A DNA stretch of 64,000 bases, from assembly GCA_903865435.1 (NCBI GenBank), contig CAIPJS010000042.1, positions 1-64,000 on the forward strand. The letters are read 5' to 3'. The notes under the pieces are model-generated. The model had not been told where the DNA came from and searched no databases. It saw only the letters and a list, made by a program, of their open reading frames with translations. A program made the position numbers and the translations under genes. The stretch comes from an uncultured Bacteroidota bacterium (GTDB lineage Bacteria > Bacteroidota > Bacteroidia > Chitinophagales > Chitinophagaceae). This document shows positions 28,451 to 40,584 of the stretch, in pieces. Position 1 is the stretch's first letter, and every line of letters starts with the position of its first letter.

Positions 28451-30898
28451 CTAAAATTCATAAATGAATCCAAAGGTAGGGGTGATGAATACACTATTGT
28501 TGTCTGACAATGAAGGAATTGCATTTGATCCGTCTTTCTTTAAAGCCAATCCATCTGTTGTTTGAAAAGTACCATTTGGATTGTAAGAGAAAATATAATA
28601 AGCTGGCGCAATCGATTTGGCGCCATACCAATTGGTTACATCGATATAAAAGTCAAGGGTTGATTTTTTATAATTGTACCTTTTATCCAATCTAAAATCA
28701 CTGGAATGAAAATCTTTGGTTCTTAAACTATTTAATTTTGTATAATCTAATACGCCTACACCTAAAGTTGCAAAATTAATTTTACTTGCTGCCATGTCGT
28801 ATGGGGTATAAGGTGTTCCACCTTGGTATCTAAATTTAATACCCAATTCCCAGTTTTTATTGAATTTGTATCCACCCGTTAAACTTAACAAATGAATGTT
28901 CTCCCAAGAACTAGGAATGTATTGGCCCTGTACATTGGTATAATAGCTTCTAAAAAAACTATAACTCAAAATGCCATAAAAACGTTCTGTTAATTTTTGT
29001 TGTGCAAACAACTCATATCCATAGGTTTTACCTAATCCAATAGTACTAATGTCTTCATTGCCCAAAATATTAAAATCGGCTCCTAAATTAGATAAACTTA
29101 TTCCTTTTTGAACACTTATAGGAACATGGTGGTATTGTTTATAGAAAACTTCTGCAGTGAATCGCGTAGCTTCTGATGGGATGTATTCAATGCCTGTTAC
29201 ATAATGTGTGCTTTCAATATATTCAGCATCTTTATTCAAATAGTTTCCATTGTTGTCTTTAAATCCTAATGCGGTATTGGGTGCAATTTTAAAATATTCA
29301 CCAACTGAAGCATTCCAGGTAACCTGATCATTCACCACCCAACTCAAACCCAATCTAGGAGAGAGTCGTTTCATAAATTGATGACCACTATTGGTAAAAC
29401 CATTTCCATCTGTTCTAATCCCAGCACTAATTCCCAATCTATTGTCAAAAGCTTTTTTACCCAATTGAAAAAAAGCGCCATATTTATTATAATTGATATT
29501 GGTTGCATAATTTACTATGACAGGGGTGGTTATATAGGTATTGACATTATTAAGCATCAAAAAATTATATTTCAACAGTTGAAAAGTATTGTTATCGTAG
29601 GCAACATTCTTATAATTAAAGCCAGTTGTCCATTTTAAGCCTAGAAAATTTTTTGTGATGTCCCATTTTATACTATTCTCGGTTGTATTAGAAGTATAAT
29701 CAAAAGTTTTTTCACCCTTGTCTGGATTTAAATTATTTTCATATTTTTCATTTATATTGTTTAAATGACTTTTACTAATGGAGAAATCCCAATAACCTCT
29801 TTCAATTAACTTTTTCAAAGATGCCCCCAGTGTATAGCTTTTTTGATTGATGGTTGGACTTGTATTTAAGGCATAAATTTTTTGAGGCGTTGCATTTCTT
29901 GGGGCTACATAATAAAAATTGTCTATGGCACCAACGCCTAAAAATGTGAGGGTAGTCTTTGCATCAATATTGTGTGTAATCTTATATTGAAAGTCCCAAA
30001 AATTAGGACGAATCGGTAAATCTAATACATGAAATAAAAATTGCAAATAACTTCTCCTTGCCGAAATTAAAAAAGTAGTTTTCCCAGATGAAGACAAAGG
30101 CCCTTCTAATGTTGTTGCAAATTCGGTGGCACCCAATCTTGTGTTGCCTTGCACTTTTTTCGAATTCCCTCTTTTTTGTTTGAATTCAAACACCGAAGAC
30201 AATGCATCATCAAATTTGGCATCAAAAGCCGATGAAGAGAGTTTTACTTCATCAATAAAAGACACATTCAAAATTCCTTGTGGGCCTCCCGCACTACCTT
30301 GTGTACTAAAATGATTGATTACTGGAATTTCAATTCCATCTAAATAAAAAACATTTTCATTTGGGGCGCCGCCTCTTACAATAATATCATTTCTAAAACT
30401 ATTGCCAGTACCAGCAGATCCGGTTACACCAGGCAATGATTGTACCACTTTAGAAATATCAAAATTACTACCAGGGCTTGACTTGATTTCTTCGGCTGTC
30501 AACCTTTGAACACTTAGTGGAGTTTCTAAACTAGCAGCGCGCACTGTTTTTTTATTACCACCCACCGTAACCTCTTTTAAAACAATATCTAAGGGAATCA
30601 GTTCTACAGTGGTACTGTTTTCATTACCAGTACTTACTATAAAATTAAAAAGGGTCAAAGGCAAACTTCCTAATGATGTAAATTTAATTTGATATTGACC
30701 TGTAGGTATTGCTTTAAATTGAAAATTACCAAGAGAATCTGTTGAAGTTGAATAAATACTGTTGACTAATTTTATCGTAACCCCCGCAATTGGTTTTTGT
30801 GTATTTTTATCAATTACCCAACCAGATAAATTTCCTTTGGATTGACCAAAACTATAATTGAAGAATATAAATAAGCCAACCGTGAACATCCATTTCAT
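28451..30898 (-). CDS. TonB-dependent receptor with carboxypeptidase-like regulatory domain
   Basis: Outer-membrane receptor for energised uptake. A signal peptide covers residues 1-19 (ending SFGQ). A CarboxypepD_reg-like beta-sandwich follows (about 22-105: GWVIDKNTQKPIAGVTIKLV). The plug lies at about 115-235 and includes VVQSLPGVTG and DIIVRGGAPNENVFYLDGIEIP. The barrel extends to the terminal aromatic in FGFIYEF. At 815 residues it is somewhat small. There is no SusD partner, sigma/anti-sigma pair or transporter next to it, so the ligand is unknown; metal complexes or small peptides are as likely as glycans. Confidence 0.92.
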   Translation of the reverse strand: MKWMFTVGLFIFFNYSFGQSKGNLSGWVIDKNTQKPIAGVTIKLVNSIYSTSTDSLGNFQFKAIPTGQYQIKFTSLGSLPLTLFNFIVSTGNENSTTVELIPLDIVLKEVTVGGNKKTVRAASLETPLSVQRLTAEEIKSSPGSNFDISKVVQSLPGVTGSAGTGNSFRNDIIVRGGAPNENVFYLDGIEIPVINHFSTQGSAGGPQGILNVSFIDEVKLSSSAFDAKFDDALSSVFEFKQKRGNSKKVQGNTRLGATEFATTLEGPLSSSGKTTFLISARRSYLQFLFHVLDLPIRPNFWDFQYKITHNIDAKTTLTFLGVGAIDNFYYVAPRNATPQKIYALNTSPTINQKSYTLGASLKKLIERGYWDFSISKSHLNNINEKYENNLNPDKGEKTFDYTSNTTENSIKWDITKNFLGLKWTTGFNYKNVAYDNNTFQLLKYNFLMLNNVNTYITTPVIVNYATNINYNKYGAFFQLGKKAFDNRLGISAGIRTDGNGFTNSGHQFMKRLSPRLGLSWVVNDQVTWNASVGEYFKIAPNTALGFKDNNGNYLNKDAEYIESTHYVTGIEYIPSEATRFTAEVFYKQYHHVPISVQKGISLSNLGADFNILGNEDISTIGLGKTYGYELFAQQKLTERFYGILSYSFFRSYYTNVQGQYIPSSWENIHLLSLTGGYKFNKNWELGIKFRYQGGTPYTPYDMAASKINFATLGVGVLDYTKLNSLRTKDFHSSDFRLDKRYNYKKSTLDFYIDVTNWYGAKSIAPAYYIFSYNPNGTFQTTDGLALKKDGSNAIPSLSDNNSVFITPTFGFIYEF

Positions 30899-33785: not shown

Positions 33786-34196
33786 TTAACTAAAATAAGT
33801 GCTTAGTTTTTCTAGCATCAAACTAGGCATCATTGCTCTTTTTCCTAATTTTTCATCCATAAAATATAATTTGACCATGCCAATGGTTAACAGTTTTCCT
33901 TCCTCATTGTAAATTTCTTGATGAAATAAAATTCTATGATCATTGGGCAATTCTTTGATTTGGGTTTTAATGGTCAATAAATCATCATATCTAGCAGGTC
34001 TTAAGTATTTTATGTTAAGCTCTACTACTGGTAGCATTATGCCCAATGTTTCTATTACTTTATAACTAAACCCAAGTGATCTAAAGCTTTCAACCCTTCC
34101 CACTTCAAAATATTGGGCATAATTCCCATAATAAACAACGTTCATAGGATCCGTTTCGGCATACCTTACTCTGACTGTAGTATGATGTTCGTACAT
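33786..34196 (-). CDS. Acyl-CoA thioesterase, YbgC/FadM type
   Basis: Hot-dog fold thioesterase. The active-site signature is AETDPMNVVYYGNYAQYFEVGR, with catalytic Asp16. The ATG at 34196 gives 136 residues and lies 18 bases after a consensus promoter element; the longer frame to 34244 begins upstream of that element and is rejected. YbgC is often linked to the Tol-Pal system, but no tol gene is nearby here. Substrate is probably short- or medium-chain acyl-CoA, by family only. Confidence 0.87.
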   Translation of the reverse strand: MYEHHTTVRVRYAETDPMNVVYYGNYAQYFEVGRVESFRSLGFSYKVIETLGIMLPVVELNIKYLRPARYDDLLTIKTQIKELPNDHRILFHQEIYNEEGKLLTIGMVKLYFMDEKLGKRAMMPSLMLEKLSTYFS

Positions 34197-34214
34197 ATTT
34201 ATTGTAATTGTGTA

Positions 34215-34222
34215 CAAAATTA
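34215..34222 (-). promoter_or_regulatory. Promoter -7 element of the YbgC-type gene
   Basis: On the minus strand TAATTTTG exactly matches TAnnTTTG, 18 bases before the chosen ATG at 34196. Confidence 0.55.
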
Positions 34223-34282
34223 CGAATGAAATCTGTTTTTCCACAATAAGCGCTATTATTTAATCGTTTTATAAAGAGAGCT

Positions 34283-34315: not shown

Positions 34316-37300
34316 ATGCGATTTATCATTCGTTCCATATCATTTCTAACCCTGTTCACTTTGCCTTCCTTTTTGAGTTTTGGGCAAAACGGGCAAATAC
34401 ATCATCCATTGAATGGTTTATTTGAACAAGGTGTACAAGCCTTGAAACAGGGGGACACCATTGCTGCATTTCAAAAAATTCAATCTGCTTATACCTTTTC
34501 TCCAAATCAAGAAGACATCAATTATTATTATTTTTCACTTTCTTTAATTTTAGACAAACCCAATGCTGCCAATGCCACCGAAAAGTGGTTAAGTGAAAAC
34601 AATAACAAAATTTATACTTCAAAGATTAATTTTTTATTAGGTAAGTATTATTTCAAAAAGCAAGATGATGATAAAGCCCTTAGCGCATTTGCGCAGGTTC
34701 ATATAGAAGAATTGGCCAATACTGAAATAATTGAGATGAATTATTTTAAAGGGTACCTTGCTTTTAAAAAGGGGGATTGGGCAAAAGCCGAAGGTTTATT
34801 GGGCAGCGTAAGGCAAATAAAAGAATGTCCTTATTATACCAATGCGAATTATTATGCAGGTTTTATTGCTTTACAAAAAAAGGATTTTACACTTGCTTTA
34901 AATGGATTTAAAATTGCTTCAGCCAATAACGCTTATGCAAGCTTAACCCCATTTTATATGAGCCAGATTTATTATTTTATGGGAGAGGTGAATGCCGCTA
35001 TGGAACAATGTGAGGCTGCAATAAAATTACCAGGTCAATTTTATAATTTACAATTACAACAATTAATGGGTCACTTGTTGTTTGAAAAGAAGGCTTATCT
35101 AAAGGCAATTCCATATCTTTCGTTTTATGTTAAAAACAATACACACCCCGATAAACAGGATGTTTATCAACTTTCTTATTGTTATTTTCAAAATGAGCAA
35201 TGGGAAAACGCTATAGATGGTTTTAAGTCTTTGACCTCCATTGAAGACTCTTTAGGTCAAAACAGTATGTACTTATTGGGAACCTCTTACTTAAAGGTTA
35301 ATGATAAAAATGGGGCAAAAAATGCATTTTTATTATGTGCCACCAAAAGCGAAAATTTAGTTCAAAAAGAAATTGCTTTATTTAATTATGGGAAATTAAG
35401 TGCCGAATTAAAAGAATATGGCAATGCCATTACTACATTAGATAAATTCATTGAGAATTATCCCAAATCTGAATTCATAACAGAAGCAAAATCATTGTGG
35501 GTAAGTGCTTTGGCTTTAAATAATAATTATGAACAAGCCTTTGATACTTACAATACCATTGAGCAACCTTCTTTAGATTTATTAAAACTATACCCAGTCA
35601 TCTTATACGGACGTGCCACAATGTATTTAAATGAAGGACAGGTTGAAAAAGGGTATGCTTTATTGTATCAATTGCTTCATATTCCTTACAATTATAAAGT
35701 ATTGCCATCTACTTTATTTTGGTTGGGTGAACTTTCTTATAAAATGGGTCGAATTCAAGATGCCACCGATTATTTAGAAAAGTTCTTGCTCACACCTGTA
35801 GAAATAGGAGAGATTGGAATATTGCATGCTAAATATACGCTTGGCTATTGTTATTTGAAAGCAGGTGCCTACCCAAATGCATACACTAATTTTGCAGCTA
35901 TAACCAATTCCATTCCTGCATCCAATGCAGACAAATATCAAAAAGATGCATTTGTAAGAGCCGCCGATTGTCAAATGATGTTAAAGCAAATGAAGCAATC
36001 ACTGGAATCTTATCAGGAAATTATTGATCTAGGTTGGACCTATAGAGATTATGCAACTTTACAAAAAGCAATTGTCTTGGGCGGCATGAACAAGCCAAAA
36101 GATAAATTAAATATCCTGAGCAATTTTGACATCAAATTCCCTAATTCTACTTATATCAACGATGCAAGAATGGAATTAGCAGATACCTATATCAATCAAG
36201 AGAATTTTCAAGATGCCATTGCACCTTTAGCTAAAATAACCATTGATAAAACTGCCATGAGTTATTTTCCTCAGGCTTATTATAAATTAGGATTGGTATA
36301 TTTTAACTTGAATAAAAACGATGCTGCCTTACAAAATTTTAGAGAATTGTATACCAATTATCCAAAATCAATAGAAACGGATAATGCCATTGAATTTATT
36401 AGAAATATATTTATTGAAGATCAAAAACCAGAAATGTTTGTCCAGTTTATGAATGAATTTGGCAAGCCATTGTCTTTTAGTGAGCAAGATTCTTTAATCT
36501 ATAGAGCTTCAACAATCAAATATGAACAGAATAAATATACAGAAGCTGCACAAGGATTTAGTAAATACTTAAACCTATTTCCAACAGGAAAGTATCAATT
36601 GGATGCCAATAATTTAGTTGCCGAAATCAATTATTCACAACAACATTATGACACCGCTGCTTTTTACTTTGCAAGAGTTGCCGAGCAAGCACCTAATAAA
36701 TTTGCAGAAAGAGCATCATTATTAGCTGCAAGGTTAAATTATTTCAATTTCAAACAATATGATTTAGCAGAAAAATACTTCACCATCTTAAATAACATAG
36801 CCATCCAACAAGAGAATAAGACAGAAGCAACAAAGGGGTTGCTAAGATGTGCTTATAAGTCTGGCAAATGGAATGAGTCTGCGAAAGTGGCCAATATGAT
36901 TCTAGAAGATAAATTAAGTGCTACGGATGATATTGAAATGGCTAATATGTCTCTTTATCATCAATCATTAATAAATAAAGACACCCTATTAGCAATTCAA
37001 ATGCTATCCAAAATATTAAAAAATGGACATTCTTTGATTTCGGCAGAAGCACATTTTGAATTGGCGCAATTGTATTTATTTCAAGGCAAATTAGCGCTAG
37101 CTGAAAAAACTGCATTTGAAATGATTAAAAAACAAGCTGCATATGAATATTGGATGACCAAGGCCTATATATTGTTAGGGGATATCTACGTAGCACAAAA
37201 AGACAACTTTAATGCCATCGCCACCTATAAGAGTGTTGCAGAAAATGCAAGTATTGGAGAGCTAAAGGCAGTTGCCGCTGAAAAATTAAAATTGTTGAAT

Positions 37301-37321
37301 GAACAATCAACAATTAAATAA
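34316..37321 (+). CDS. Large exported TPR-repeat protein
   Basis: A 1001-residue periplasmic protein. A signal peptide covers residues 1-24 (ending LSFGQ). The rest is almost entirely helical TPR or TPR-like repeats of 34-36 residues; clear copies contain ALNGFKIASANNAYASL, AITTLDKFIENYPKSEF, ALQNFRELYTNYPKSIE and AAQGFSKYLNLFPTGKY. The late repeats resemble those of YbgF/CpoB and BamD (spacing with TNYPKS or LFPTGKY). No enzymatic motif is visible, so it is probably a scaffold in the periplasm. It leads a tight four-gene run, and the beta-barrel gene follows seven bases after its stop. Confidence 0.87.
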   Translation: MRFIIRSISFLTLFTLPSFLSFGQNGQIHHPLNGLFEQGVQALKQGDTIAAFQKIQSAYTFSPNQEDINYYYFSLSLILDKPNAANATEKWLSENNNKIYTSKINFLLGKYYFKKQDDDKALSAFAQVHIEELANTEIIEMNYFKGYLAFKKGDWAKAEGLLGSVRQIKECPYYTNANYYAGFIALQKKDFTLALNGFKIASANNAYASLTPFYMSQIYYFMGEVNAAMEQCEAAIKLPGQFYNLQLQQLMGHLLFEKKAYLKAIPYLSFYVKNNTHPDKQDVYQLSYCYFQNEQWENAIDGFKSLTSIEDSLGQNSMYLLGTSYLKVNDKNGAKNAFLLCATKSENLVQKEIALFNYGKLSAELKEYGNAITTLDKFIENYPKSEFITEAKSLWVSALALNNNYEQAFDTYNTIEQPSLDLLKLYPVILYGRATMYLNEGQVEKGYALLYQLLHIPYNYKVLPSTLFWLGELSYKMGRIQDATDYLEKFLLTPVEIGEIGILHAKYTLGYCYLKAGAYPNAYTNFAAITNSIPASNADKYQKDAFVRAADCQMMLKQMKQSLESYQEIIDLGWTYRDYATLQKAIVLGGMNKPKDKLNILSNFDIKFPNSTYINDARMELADTYINQENFQDAIAPLAKITIDKTAMSYFPQAYYKLGLVYFNLNKNDAALQNFRELYTNYPKSIETDNAIEFIRNIFIEDQKPEMFVQFMNEFGKPLSFSEQDSLIYRASTIKYEQNKYTEAAQGFSKYLNLFPTGKYQLDANNLVAEINYSQQHYDTAAFYFARVAEQAPNKFAERASLLAARLNYFNFKQYDLAEKYFTILNNIAIQQENKTEATKGLLRCAYKSGKWNESAKVANMILEDKLSATDDIEMANMSLYHQSLINKDTLLAIQMLSKILKNGHSLISAEAHFELAQLYLFQGKLALAEKTAFEMIKKQAAYEYWMTKAYILLGDIYVAQKDNFNAIATYKSVAENASIGELKAVAAEKLKLLNEQSTIK

Positions 37322-37328
37322 AAAACTT

Positions 37329-39170
37329 ATGAACCATTTCTTTAAATATTGCCTTTTATTTTTAACACTGATATTTGTTTCGGTGGGTGGAGAAGCGCAA
37401 AAAAAGCTAACCAAGAAAAATAAAGCCACTGTTTCAAAAACAGCAGTTGCTAAAAAGAAAAGAAATAGTAAAAAAAATACGAAAAAGAAAAAGGGTCATT
37501 TAAATAATATTGATCGAGTAATTTTTAAAGATGAAGTGCCACAAGCTACAAGCCAAGCTAAAACTTTAAAATTAGACACTGTTCCAGAAAAAGTGGTCAA
37601 TATATTGTCTGCATTTAAACCACAGTTAAAAAATGTTGCCAAAATAAGTTTTACATCTGCTACTGCGCAAAGCGATACGACTACTTTACAAATGAATTAT
37701 CAAGTGCCTAGCCAAAACTTGTCTTTTCAATACCAGCCAGTTGCCTTGGTGCCTAGAACTTACAAATTATTGCCAACTGAAATTTATAACAATCTAGCAA
37801 GTTTAAAATTTGGATATGGGAATTATGCCCGCTACCTCATCGACTTCAATACAACACTTACTGACAATGCTTCTAATATTCATTCTATTTCCTTATTCAA
37901 TGAACAATCTCAAGGTGCTTTACACTTGCAAACCACTAAAGATTTTGGAATTAAATACATAAGTGATATCCAGGTTGGCGAACAAAGTCATTTGCACACT
38001 CAAATATTTTACCAAAACAGTCAACGGTATCGATATGGATTGGTGGACGATGCTACTAATTTACCTAATTCAAACTTTGAACAAAGCTTTTCTCATATGG
38101 GTGGGGCTTTTAAATGGGTCAATTCAAATGATAAAAGTTTATTTTCTTTAATTAGTCCTATTGTTAAAATTGAACATTTTACCGGAACAGAGAATGCGAA
38201 AAATACTTGGTTTGAAATTTACAATCCACTATTTATTAAATTTGAAAATAATGTAAAATTCAATTTTAATTTCTCCTATAATTTTAATGAATACCAATTA
38301 GCAACTGGGAATAAAGTTGACAATGGCATTTTAAATATGGAACCTTCCTTAGAATTTATCAGATGGGCAACCAATTTTAAACTAGGTGCAAGTTCCAACA
38401 TTACAAATGGCGTTTATACCTTTAATCCGGCGCTGGATTTTAGAAAAAAACTTGCCGATACCACCATAACTTTATTGGGAGGATGGCATACTATTTTAAC
38501 CAATAATCAATATACTATGTTGGCTACGATCAATCCTTGGATTGCAGCACCAACAGATATGAAAATTACCACTCAAGAAAAGAAAAATTTTGGTGTTGAA
38601 ATTAACGCTTCTAAAAATCTTAAATATGGTATTGGATTGTCCTTAAATGATTATAGAAATTTACCTTTATTCAATCGGATTTTAAATAATGATAAAATTC
38701 TAGCATTCAATACTACACAATCTGGCTTAAAATACAAATCAATTTTTGAATATAGAGCCATTACCATCGAGCTGGAGGGAAATCTAAGGTATCAATTCAG
38801 TGATAAATTATTGTTCCAAAATAATTTCAAATACATTCAATTTAATTCAATAAAAGAAAATGACAAACCTTGGGGCATCCTTCCTTTAGAATTGAATTCG
38901 GCTTTAAGTTGGACGCCTAATAAAAAATGGACATTAGATGGGGGATTCAATTATTGGACGGGTGCAGCACTTTCCAATAGCAAAAATCTCCCTGTAGATC
39001 TAAGCAATAGTTTGGTTTTGAATGCAGGATTAACCTATCAATGGACGCCATCTTGGAAAGCATGGTTTAAAGCAGATAATTTATTAGACAAACCCTACCA
39101 ACGATGGGCAGATTATCCTTCTTTAGGCTTACAATTAATTACAGGCGTTGTATATTCGTTTCATAAATAA
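37329..39170 (+). CDS. Plugless outer-membrane beta-barrel with polybasic N-terminus
   Basis: A 613-residue exported protein. A signal peptide occupies about 1-24 (ending GGEAQ). Residues 25-55 are extraordinarily basic, with 15 Lys and one Arg in 31 positions. From about 130 the pattern is amphipathic beta strands to the end. The C-terminal segment (FKADNLLDKPYQRWADYPSLG, then ITGVVYSF) is typical of the last strands of TonB-dependent receptors, but there is no plug, no TonB box and no carboxypeptidase-like domain. The ATG at 37329 is chosen because the ATG at 37299 lies inside the TPR gene and spoils the signal peptide. Function is unknown. Confidence 0.8.
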   Translation: MNHFFKYCLLFLTLIFVSVGGEAQKKLTKKNKATVSKTAVAKKKRNSKKNTKKKKGHLNNIDRVIFKDEVPQATSQAKTLKLDTVPEKVVNILSAFKPQLKNVAKISFTSATAQSDTTTLQMNYQVPSQNLSFQYQPVALVPRTYKLLPTEIYNNLASLKFGYGNYARYLIDFNTTLTDNASNIHSISLFNEQSQGALHLQTTKDFGIKYISDIQVGEQSHLHTQIFYQNSQRYRYGLVDDATNLPNSNFEQSFSHMGGAFKWVNSNDKSLFSLISPIVKIEHFTGTENAKNTWFEIYNPLFIKFENNVKFNFNFSYNFNEYQLATGNKVDNGILNMEPSLEFIRWATNFKLGASSNITNGVYTFNPALDFRKKLADTTITLLGGWHTILTNNQYTMLATINPWIAAPTDMKITTQEKKNFGVEINASKNLKYGIGLSLNDYRNLPLFNRILNNDKILAFNTTQSGLKYKSIFEYRAITIELEGNLRYQFSDKLLFQNNFKYIQFNSIKENDKPWGILPLELNSALSWTPNKKWTLDGGFNYWTGAALSNSKNLPVDLSNSLVLNAGLTYQWTPSWKAWFKADNLLDKPYQRWADYPSLGLQLITGVVYSFHK

Positions 39171-39173
39171 TTT

Positions 39174-39665
39174 ATGTTAAAAGTTCTAACTCAATATTTT
39201 GCTAAAAATGGCCAATTGGTCTTACCTAATATTGGCTGGGTTCATTTAGAAAAGCAAGAGGCAACTTGGGTTGATGATGTTTTAATAGCGCCTAGAGAAT
39301 CAATTGTATTAGATGCATCCTTAACAAAGCCTGATAAATTGTTTTACCATTACTTAGCCGATCAGTTAGAAATTTCTTATGAACAAGCTGTGGTTCAATT
39401 AGATCAATACATACAATCTGTTTTTGAAAATGAAGATGCTATTTTACCTCTCGGTAAATTTGGTTCGATATCAAAAACAGCTGTTGATTACATTTGGACT
39501 TCTTCATACAATTCAAGTGTTTATTTAAAGGAAATCCAAATAACACCTCTCGAAAATAGAGTGAATGTGGAACTTACAAATGTTCCCCAAAAAGACAATT
39601 GGTATATCTGGGCCATTGTACTTTCTATGATTGCCCTTATTGCCATCTTATACAAAACGCTTTAA
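39174..39665 (+). CDS. HU-CCDC81-type domain protein with C-terminal membrane anchor
   Basis: A 163-residue protein. Residues about 1-80 and 85-135 look like the two HU-like domains of the bacterial CCDC81 group (NGQLVLPNIGWVHL near residue 12, DAILPLGKFGSIS near 88). A single transmembrane helix lies at 143-160 (WYIWAIVLSMIALIAILY), and the protein stops three residues later. Described HU-CCDC81 proteins continue across the membrane into a peptidoglycan-binding SPOR domain, which is absent here. The orientation should place the HU domains in the cytoplasm. It lies three bases after the barrel gene. Confidence 0.7.
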   Translation: MLKVLTQYFAKNGQLVLPNIGWVHLEKQEATWVDDVLIAPRESIVLDASLTKPDKLFYHYLADQLEISYEQAVVQLDQYIQSVFENEDAILPLGKFGSISKTAVDYIWTSSYNSSVYLKEIQITPLENRVNVELTNVPQKDNWYIWAIVLSMIALIAILYKTL

Positions 39666-39666
39666 G

Positions 39667-40584
39667 ATGCCTAATTTGAATAAAAAATTTGCCCCTTGTC
39701 CTATTTGTAATCAAGAGGATATTGCTTTTTTAATACACAGTAAAGATTATTCTTTAACGCGTGAAAGTTTTCAAATTATTCAATGTGCACATTGTAATTT
39801 AAAATATACCGACCCCATTCCGAATATAGAAGACATTGCCCCTTATTATAATTTTCCATCCTATATTTCTCATACAGATGATAAAAATGGTTTAATCAAT
39901 AAATTATACCATAAAGTAAGGATTCACACGCTCCATACTAAAACCAATTGGGTTCAATCTTTATTTACTGGGTATAAGGGTCAATTATTAGAAGTAGGGG
40001 CTGGAACGGGCGCTTTTGCCCACGCAATGACTAAAAAAGGTTGGAATGTAAGTGCTTTAGAGCCTGATGCTGCATCAAGAGCAAGGGCCTTCACTAATTA
40101 TAACATACAAATTGATCCCATTGAATCACTTTTCAATTTAGAAGAAAATAAATTTGATGTGATCACGCTTTGGCATGTTTTGGAACATGTACACGATTTG
40201 AATGGGTACTTACGTGCTTTTTATAAGCTATTGAAGCCCAATGGAAGATTAATTATTGCTGTACCCAATTATACCAGTTATGATGCTCAATTTTATAAAA
40301 AATACTGGGCTGCGTATGATGTCCCAAGACATTTGTATCATTTTACACCTAGCTCCATGGAATTTTTAGCTAAAAAATACAAAATGGAACTGGTGAGCAT
40401 TACTCCCATGTGGTTTGATAGCTACTATGTAAGTTTATTAAGTGAAAGGTATAAAAAAACAGGAATTTTTGGAATGATCCGTGCTGGAATCATTGCGAGT
40501 ATTTCCAACTTGGTTGCACTAAAAAATAATAAGCGCACCAGCTCGGTTATTTATGAATTAAAAAAGAAAACAACAGTGTTTTAG
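39667..40584 (+). CDS. Class I SAM-dependent methyltransferase with zinc ribbon
   Basis: A 305-residue enzyme. A rubredoxin-like zinc ribbon is formed by Cys11, Cys14, Cys40 and Cys43 (CPIC and CAHC). The SAM site is LLEVGAGTGAFAHAM (about 102-116), followed by ALEPDAASRARA and the post-site ITLWHVLEHVHDLNGYL, with AVPNYTSYD further on. This arrangement is common in methyltransferases that act on sugars or small molecules (Methyltransf_23 type). It starts one base after the HU gene stop; the ATG at 39667 is preferred to an upstream ATG at 39631 that lies inside the previous gene. Substrate unknown. Confidence 0.85.
   Translation: MPNLNKKFAPCPICNQEDIAFLIHSKDYSLTRESFQIIQCAHCNLKYTDPIPNIEDIAPYYNFPSYISHTDDKNGLINKLYHKVRIHTLHTKTNWVQSLFTGYKGQLLEVGAGTGAFAHAMTKKGWNVSALEPDAASRARAFTNYNIQIDPIESLFNLEENKFDVITLWHVLEHVHDLNGYLRAFYKLLKPNGRLIIAVPNYTSYDAQFYKKYWAAYDVPRHLYHFTPSSMEFLAKKYKMELVSITPMWFDSYYVSLLSERYKKTGIFGMIRAGIIASISNLVALKNNKRTSSVIYELKKKTTVF

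Follow-up and report, generated by a model that had tools for sequence, protein, structure and literature searches.

The Tol-Pal system, which holds or constricts the outer membrane in division, combines a TolQ-TolR-type motor with a TonB/TolA-like transducer and a periplasmic tetratricopeptide repeat (TPR) protein, and YbgC and CpoB belong to tol-pal clusters. The Agl-Glt gliding machinery of Myxococcus similarly joins a motor of the TolQR type to TPR proteins and outer-membrane barrels. In one study, Tol-Pal loci are reported missing in Bacteroidetes, no Bacteroidetes pal genes were detected in one database, and PorE, a single lipoprotein whose parts resemble CpoB, TolB, a carboxypeptidase and Pal, is the tether proposed to fill this gap (PMC12204202). 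Here, we analyzed a 64,000-nucleotide stretch of DNA from an uncultured Bacteroidota bacterium (contig CAIPJS010000042.1; hereafter the window) in which genes for a TPR protein, a plug-less outer-membrane barrel, a membrane-anchored HU protein and a methyltransferase follow one another. By a narrow preference, our comparisons point to the first three proteins as partners of a proton-motive-force-driven machine of the Tol/Ton type in Bacteroidota, and we propose the cluster as a candidate counterpart of Tol-Pal. PorE, proposed for the same gap, is set apart by being described there as one lipoprotein. Judging from titles and the starts of abstracts, we recognised no paper that describes the cluster among those listed, and none was found for HU-CCDC81 alone or for CCDC81 with Bacteroidetes, preprints and most subscription journals lying outside the coverage.

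The initial annotation had described four tightly packed genes separated by 7, 3 and 1 bases (Table 1), an arrangement that was confirmed by open frames, profile matches and structure models. A search with the window barrel found it in 46 of 60 relatives. At 28 other loci of the same genus, taken as best barrel matches, 27 have a TPR gene next to the barrel, 25 gave an HU match and 27 carry the methyltransferase; L018 lacks TPR, and L019 lacks both HU and the methyltransferase, each at a contig end, while L027 and L028 have a gene-sized gap at the expected HU position. The same order was found at 79 relative loci, mostly of named metagenome-assembled relatives: TPR lies upstream in all 75 that extend far enough, HU follows the barrel in 77 of 78 (scored with a model whose training rows included loci of this kind) and the methyltransferase is found downstream in 67 of 72. 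When 63 other barrels were aligned with that of the window, identities to it spanned 67% to 15%.

The comparison was extended to a phylum sample of 247 genomes, 144 of which were matched by the barrel profile; all genomes of the window's class or nearer were matched, as the first misses in the kinship-ordered list fall outside the class. Of these matches, 61 (window included) belong to the window's class or nearer, and 50 of them were inspected, leaving out 11 genomes of family f24; of the 83 others, 27 were inspected, and the 56 left out include many weak C-terminal matches and some f42 genomes. The resulting 77 neighbourhoods are therefore a chosen set, covering 16 families (labelled by f numbers, f1 being the window's own). 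Genes were called with a simple caller of our own and their order re-read in six frames. The profiles used for labelling drew their training rows from these same loci; those of the single-HU model came from f42, a family in which PF18175 matches independently at E 0.001.

In its fullest form, the order elsewhere reads TPR, barrel, HU/SPOR protein, TolQ/ExbB, TolR/ExbD and TonB/TolA-like protein. Across the 77 genomes, the TPR gene lies 5' of the barrel gene in 55, and downstream of the barrel were found HU in 40, SPOR in 41 (by a model trained on such proteins, to which Pfam adds f43 and f53), and TolQ, TolR and the TonB/TolA-like gene in 39 each. The complete set occurs in order in f22 (6/6) and f28 (2/2). 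All components except HU are present in f27 (6/6), all except an adjacent TPR gene in f42 (21/21), and all except the transducer in f32 (2/2); single genomes of f58, f29 and f53 are without the transducer, TolQ and TolR, and HU, respectively, and the two f43 genomes are without HU, TolQ and TolR. In f18, f23, f24, f25, f26 and f30, TPR stands beside the barrel in 26 of 27 genomes. Outside the window's class, locus L235 (f58) shows TPR-barrel-HU-SPOR-TolQ-TolR; it was chosen via its HU match, and its barrel differs from the barrel of that genome in the sample profile search. The order of the four window genes is far beyond chance, and the first three of them form a genuine and ancient unit that extends from the outer to the inner membrane. 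The envelope system envisaged in the annotation holds as an envelope unit in which TPR, barrel and HU recur in order, whereas the TolQ, TolR and TonB/TolA-like genes that follow elsewhere had been overlooked, and the methyltransferase is a neighbour at the family level only.

The components checked persist where they are not linked to the cluster. One single TPR match at E 1e-30 or better was found per genome in 12 of 12 genomes checked, unlinked cases included, and in f42 the TPR protein is present once, away from the cluster, in 8 of 8. The TolQ/TolR proton-channel pair is linked in 39 of the 77 genomes, and MotA_ExbB and ExbD exceed the Pfam cut-offs in every linked pair scanned (f22, f27, f32, f53 and f58). 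Of the 38 genomes without a linked TolQ, 35 were searched with a profile that contains the window genome's own copy, and all 35 carry a TolQ of the cluster class (196–314.5 bits), the next-best match in 34 of them reaching 93.6–178.7 bits; this weaker second match was taken as a Ton-type set, as examined in the window genome alone (L237). At 30 such TolQ loci, TolR adjoins in 29 and a same-strand TonB/TolA-like gene in 19. In four of five f18 genomes (L263, L265, L270 and L278), TolQ of the cluster class is succeeded by a tandem pair of TolR-like genes. Scored with models built from linked loci only and excluding the window genome, the pair on contig C92 of the window genome reached 260.9 (TolQ) and 92.9 bits (TolR), compared with 107.4 and 44.3 for the set on C72, so that its TolQ class is distinct from its other ExbB. 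A TolA-like candidate (L296) was identified on C23 (4.1e-15), where it precedes a Mur-ligase-type gene, as the f22 transducer does in L171. The set of the window genome is hence split over three contigs, with TolQ/TolR on C92 and the TolA-like gene on C23. In two other genomes, TolA-like matches came in two overlapping pieces (G263 C1:3131216-3132100 and G075 C8:596196-597080), perhaps owing to low-complexity spacers.

Taken as a whole, the cluster genes very probably form one co-functioning module, and the machine would probably be energised by the cluster-class TolQ-TolR motor. That the genes share no function and stand together by chance or for historical reasons, as a housekeeping run, would suit the six families that keep TPR and barrel alone together, as well as the passenger-like behaviour of the methyltransferase; we regard it as very improbable, since the order is repeated in families of different classes whose barrels fall to 15% identity to that of the window, and since TPR and TolQ persist where unlinked.

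Structural comparison of the barrel protein revealed a fold similarity to TonB-dependent receptors. Its Pfam scan gave no match at E 0.1, including none to Plug, and NCBIfam returned only a weak C-terminal FepA-type match (1.8e-5), while an ordinary receptor encoded in the window (28451-30898), which served as a tool control, does match Plug and barrel models, with Plug over the cut-off. The structure model, built from 64 aligned rows, has a predicted local distance difference test score (pLDDT) of at least 90 for 379 of 613 residues, and 22 long strands were counted between residues 156 and 612, with no folded plug; residues 20-153, in part a lineage-specific arm, fall almost entirely below 50. 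Foldseek placed TonB-dependent receptors on top (PfeA at 9.7e-19, with PirA, FoxA, FepA and BtuB within the first 12), and a profile search found PfeA at 3.3e-9. Since both searches find receptors and both the model and Pfam show no plug, the protein is, as modelled, a 22-strand outer-membrane barrel of the TonB-dependent-receptor type that lacks the plug. The annotation had proposed a plug-less barrel with a lysine-rich periplasmic arm; the barrel stands, but the arm is no general trait, as a crude threshold on length and charge picks it up in 41 of the 80 rows that lie outside the family sample (79 being the relative loci above), in 1 of 8 f1 genomes and in 1 of 68 from other families; it was rejected as a core feature because it is mostly confined to close relatives.

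TonB-dependent receptors carry a TonB box of recognisable consensus. Ahead of the first strand, barrels of f22 and f24 read EEIVVTTAYKP, EEIEVVRPYKP, ETVTVTKAYTP and similar, and the conserved N-terminal stretch of the window barrel, EKVVNILSAFKP, aligns with this motif; in sequence and in position, the motif of f22 and f24 resembles a TonB box. A strict TonB-box pattern matched 24 of 77 barrels, compared with 0.9% of shuffled segments, and TonB-box-like stretches in further barrels were recognised by eye. The cluster is akin to the Ton system in its 22-strand barrel with a PfeA profile match, in the TonB-box-like stretch of some families and in its transducers, 6 of 11 of which exceed the cut-off for TonB_C or TonB_2 (L175, L177, L226, L230, L233 and L264). 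It differs in that its barrel is plug-less and, as a rule, single copy per genome, unlike the expanded nutrient receptors, and in being tied to TPR, HU/SPOR and a distinct TolQ class.

The receptor fold and the TonB-box-like motif of some families would also suit energised transport or export across the outer membrane, in which the TonB/TolA-like protein opens a barrel that is blocked either by the TPR protein or by the barrel's own N-terminal stretch to move lipid, lipoprotein or glycan, SPOR serving only to focus the process at growth sites. In other phyla, exopolysaccharides are exported with the help of paired TPR and barrel proteins, and the neighbours in L175 include a membrane protein of the lipid-synthase type (LPG_synthase_TM, over the cut-off) and a LolA-like one just under it. 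We nevertheless consider this alternative rather unlikely: the barrel is, as a rule, not multiplied as nutrient receptors are, no recurrent substrate-enzyme gene stands beside it in the maps inspected, and the cluster is linked to SPOR and FtsE-like genes. An accessory role in the β-barrel assembly machinery was also rejected, the cluster proteins being unlike BamG, a 14-strand FadL-type barrel, and BamP, with two domains and a linker, as both are described (PMC12611786).

The TPR protein, which matches many Pfam TPR models, has a signal-peptide-like N-terminus in which a pattern check found no lipobox, and a PDB sequence search gave no match at 1e-5; it is likely a periplasmic scaffold. Its weak match to the SprE/PorW model (1e-11, 44.3 bits) recalls a type 9 secretion or gliding accessory, a kind of role that further TPR and barrel proteins have in this phylum. 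Such a match may come from generic TPR units and stays short of the cut-off of 250, and the motor genes encode MotA_ExbB and ExbD proteins; we consider an accessory of this kind highly improbable.

The HU protein gave one sub-threshold Pfam match (HU-CCDC81_bac_2, 5.3e-4), and its aligned relatives exceed the Pfam HU-CCDC81 cut-off. The structure model (mean pLDDT 89.6) comprises two HU domains and a C-terminal helix (residues 143-162), and a fold search with the second domain matched HU proteins with Z about 5. On the strength of this model, the protein is of the tandem HU-CCDC81 type, which bears out the membrane-anchored HU-CCDC81 assignment of the annotation. Elsewhere, the type carries SPOR: HU-CCDC81_bac_1, HU-CCDC81_bac_2 and SPOR occur together in L171, L174, L184 and L185, which share the tandem HU-CCDC81 domains and one membrane helix with the window copy, whereas the latter stops after its helix and has no SPOR. 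SPOR exceeds the Pfam cut-off at the HU position in L171, L174, L175, L180, L226, L230, L233 and L234 (f43 2/2 proteins, f53 1/1) and is present at the locus in two of eight f1 genomes. The SPOR-bearing gene of L226 (8882-11899, f53) encodes 1006 residues, far longer than its counterparts. In f27, the HU-position genes (L186, L196, L198, L199, L200 and L201) encode a charged N-terminal part without an HU match, and SPOR is weak or absent in Pfam.

Was this protein the inner end of a chain from the outer membrane to the nucleoid, as the annotation had suggested, while holding that the lack of a basic HU surface would speak against it? The envelope part of that chain stood, as an ancient unit spanning outer to inner membrane, but its link to DNA did not. 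The model and the fold comparison do show an HU fold, and tail anchoring makes a location in the cytoplasm likely; for this HU class, Burroughs and colleagues reportedly predicted a chromosome-partition role in 2017. As bulk charge, however, the HU pair is acidic (isoelectric point (pI) 4.55, net charge -7), as are most of its relatives (50 aligned rows, window included; median pI 5.16, with 1 of 50 above 8), only a short hairpin occupies the position of the HU DNA arm in the model, and Pfam found no HU match in 9 of 9 HU-position proteins scanned from f27, f43 and f53. We therefore rejected the DNA chain on the grounds of acidic charge, missing long arm and HU absence in three families, and judge a physical connection to the nucleoid through DNA-binding HU domains very improbable. 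A further point against it, as a lead only, is that a structural search with the tandem HU model (39174-39527) ranks microtubule inner proteins highest, from the doublets of sea urchin, Tetrahymena and trypanosome (Z 7.9 and below). CCDC81 links Bacteroidota and eukaryotes, and such matches would fit this link. The HU domains may instead be a protein-binding module on the cytoplasmic face.

The simplest account of the cluster is a proton-driven trans-envelope machine, because a motor, a transducer, a receptor-type barrel, a TPR scaffold and a wall-binding protein share one order. Here, TolQ-TolR would drive the TonB/TolA-like transducer, whose C-terminal domain would pull on the outer membrane by pairing with the TPR scaffold, the TonB-box-like stretch of the barrel, or both, and the HU/SPOR protein would position the machine at the septal cell wall. 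SPOR binds septal glycan. Divergent from TPR, 13 of 15 f24 genomes and the single f25 genome carry an FtsE-like ATPase gene, and in L175 an FtsK-like gene lies three genes away; together with SPOR, these neighbours hint at a role in division, and for a division or envelope-integrity role we regard the case as evenly balanced. The likeliest job would be to hold or constrict the outer membrane in division. The genus of the window would have kept the HU half of the inner-membrane partner and lost SPOR, with its motor genes at other loci.

Like Tol-Pal, the cluster has a TolQ-TolR-type motor, a TonB/TolA-like transducer and a periplasmic TPR protein, as well as a wall-binding partner (SPOR), FtsE-/FtsK-like neighbours in some families and a YbgC-type thioesterase beside it in five of eight genomes of the window's family, window counted. 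It differs in its TPR protein of about 1000 residues, in a plug-less 22-strand barrel in the outer-membrane place and a SPOR protein in the wall-binding place, and in TolB, which occurs in only 1 of 76 inspected cluster genomes and not in the window genome. The likeness to Agl-Glt would lie in the motor, TPR and barrel composition. More tentatively, and with more doubt than confidence, we suggest that the cluster may be the missing Tol-Pal of Bacteroidota, a machine for division whose TolQRA-type motor pulls, in place of TolB-Pal, an emptied receptor barrel with a TonB box of its own, while a giant TPR scaffold holds and SPOR/HU places it. If true, a nutrient receptor would have been turned into an outer-membrane anchor, its barrel reused as a mechanical part. 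With the cluster, specific genes and a class of motor can be named, together with an order of contacts that lends itself to testing.

Several observations weigh against the proton-driven machine and its likeness to Tol-Pal. At the window locus, neither the motor nor SPOR is linked to the cluster, and none of the genes that follow the barrel elsewhere occurs at the locus in the 27 genomes of f18, f23, f24, f25, f26 and f30. The TolA-like candidate of the window genome is weak (55.9 bits, no Pfam match), a search of 12 genomes found no TolA-like gene in G172, TonB models are absent or under the cut-off in 5 of 11 transducers scanned (L171, L173, L198, L199 and L296), and the membrane-helix histidine expected of TonB/TolA was seen by eye in some lineages only. 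In NCBIfam, the TolQ/TolR proteins fall far below the TolQ and TolR equivalog cut-offs, and Ton models match them about equally. SPOR is weak in f27 (17.8, 18.3, 19.5 and 20.4 bits against a cut-off of 21, with two of six proteins unmatched), the strict TonB-box pattern is matched by neither the window barrel nor any of 21 f42 barrels, and the FtsE-like protein of L182, the only one scanned, scored 237.3 against a cut-off of 264.85. Finally, TolB_N exceeded its cut-off in 17 of the 247 genomes, and its rarity among cluster genomes (1/76 vs 16/171, p 0.026) is weak evidence, because 10 of the 17 belong to one family and the 171 include uninspected genomes with the barrel; TolB exclusion was therefore rejected, as too weak, as proof of Tol-Pal replacement.

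Table 1. Features of the cluster and its neighbours in the window
Feature	Position	Strand	Basis and remarks
TPR gene	34316..37321	+	open frame, 1001 aa
Barrel gene	37329..39170	+	613 aa counted from ATG 37329; longer mechanical open frame begins 37299
Lysine-rich arm of barrel protein	37401..37553	+	limits by eye; mostly close relatives; outside conserved core
Conserved N-terminal stretch EKVVNILSAFKP of barrel	37587..37622	+	aligns with TonB-box-like motif of other families
HU gene	39174..39665	+	open frame, 163 aa
HU-CCDC81-type domain 1	39174..39323	+	structure model, fold comparison; acidic
HU-CCDC81-type domain 2	39324..39527	+	Pfam sub-threshold, structure model, fold comparison; acidic
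C-terminal hydrophobic helix, likely transmembrane	39600..39659	+	model helix 143-162; no SPOR after helix
Methyltransferase gene (zinc-ribbon class I methyltransferase)	39667..40584	+	open frame, 305 aa; Methyltransf_23; cluster neighbour within window's family only
YbgC/FadM-type acyl-CoA thioesterase, divergent upstream neighbour	33786..34244	-	TIGR00051 over cut-off

The methyltransferase matches Pfam Methyltransf_23 at 2.1e-25 and has two CxxC pairs within its first 40 residues. It adjoins the cluster in four of eight f1 genomes and in 0 of 69 others, was therefore rejected as a core part beyond the window's family, and probably stands outside the core machine. In G263, a homologue of it (L184:2907-3755; 295 bits, Methyltransf_23) lies some 4.5 kb away from the HU/SPOR gene, which is unlinked there. 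Promoter-like and terminator-like sites in the window are equal in number to those of shuffled sequence, and TANNTTTG, which we take to be the -7 promoter motif, occurs there less often than in shuffles. The divergently encoded thioesterase matched the tol-pal thioesterase model TIGR02799 at 2.9e-23, under the cut-off. The plug-bearing ordinary TonB-dependent receptor of the window (28451-30898, 815 aa) is encoded on the opposite strand, 3.4 kb before the cluster.

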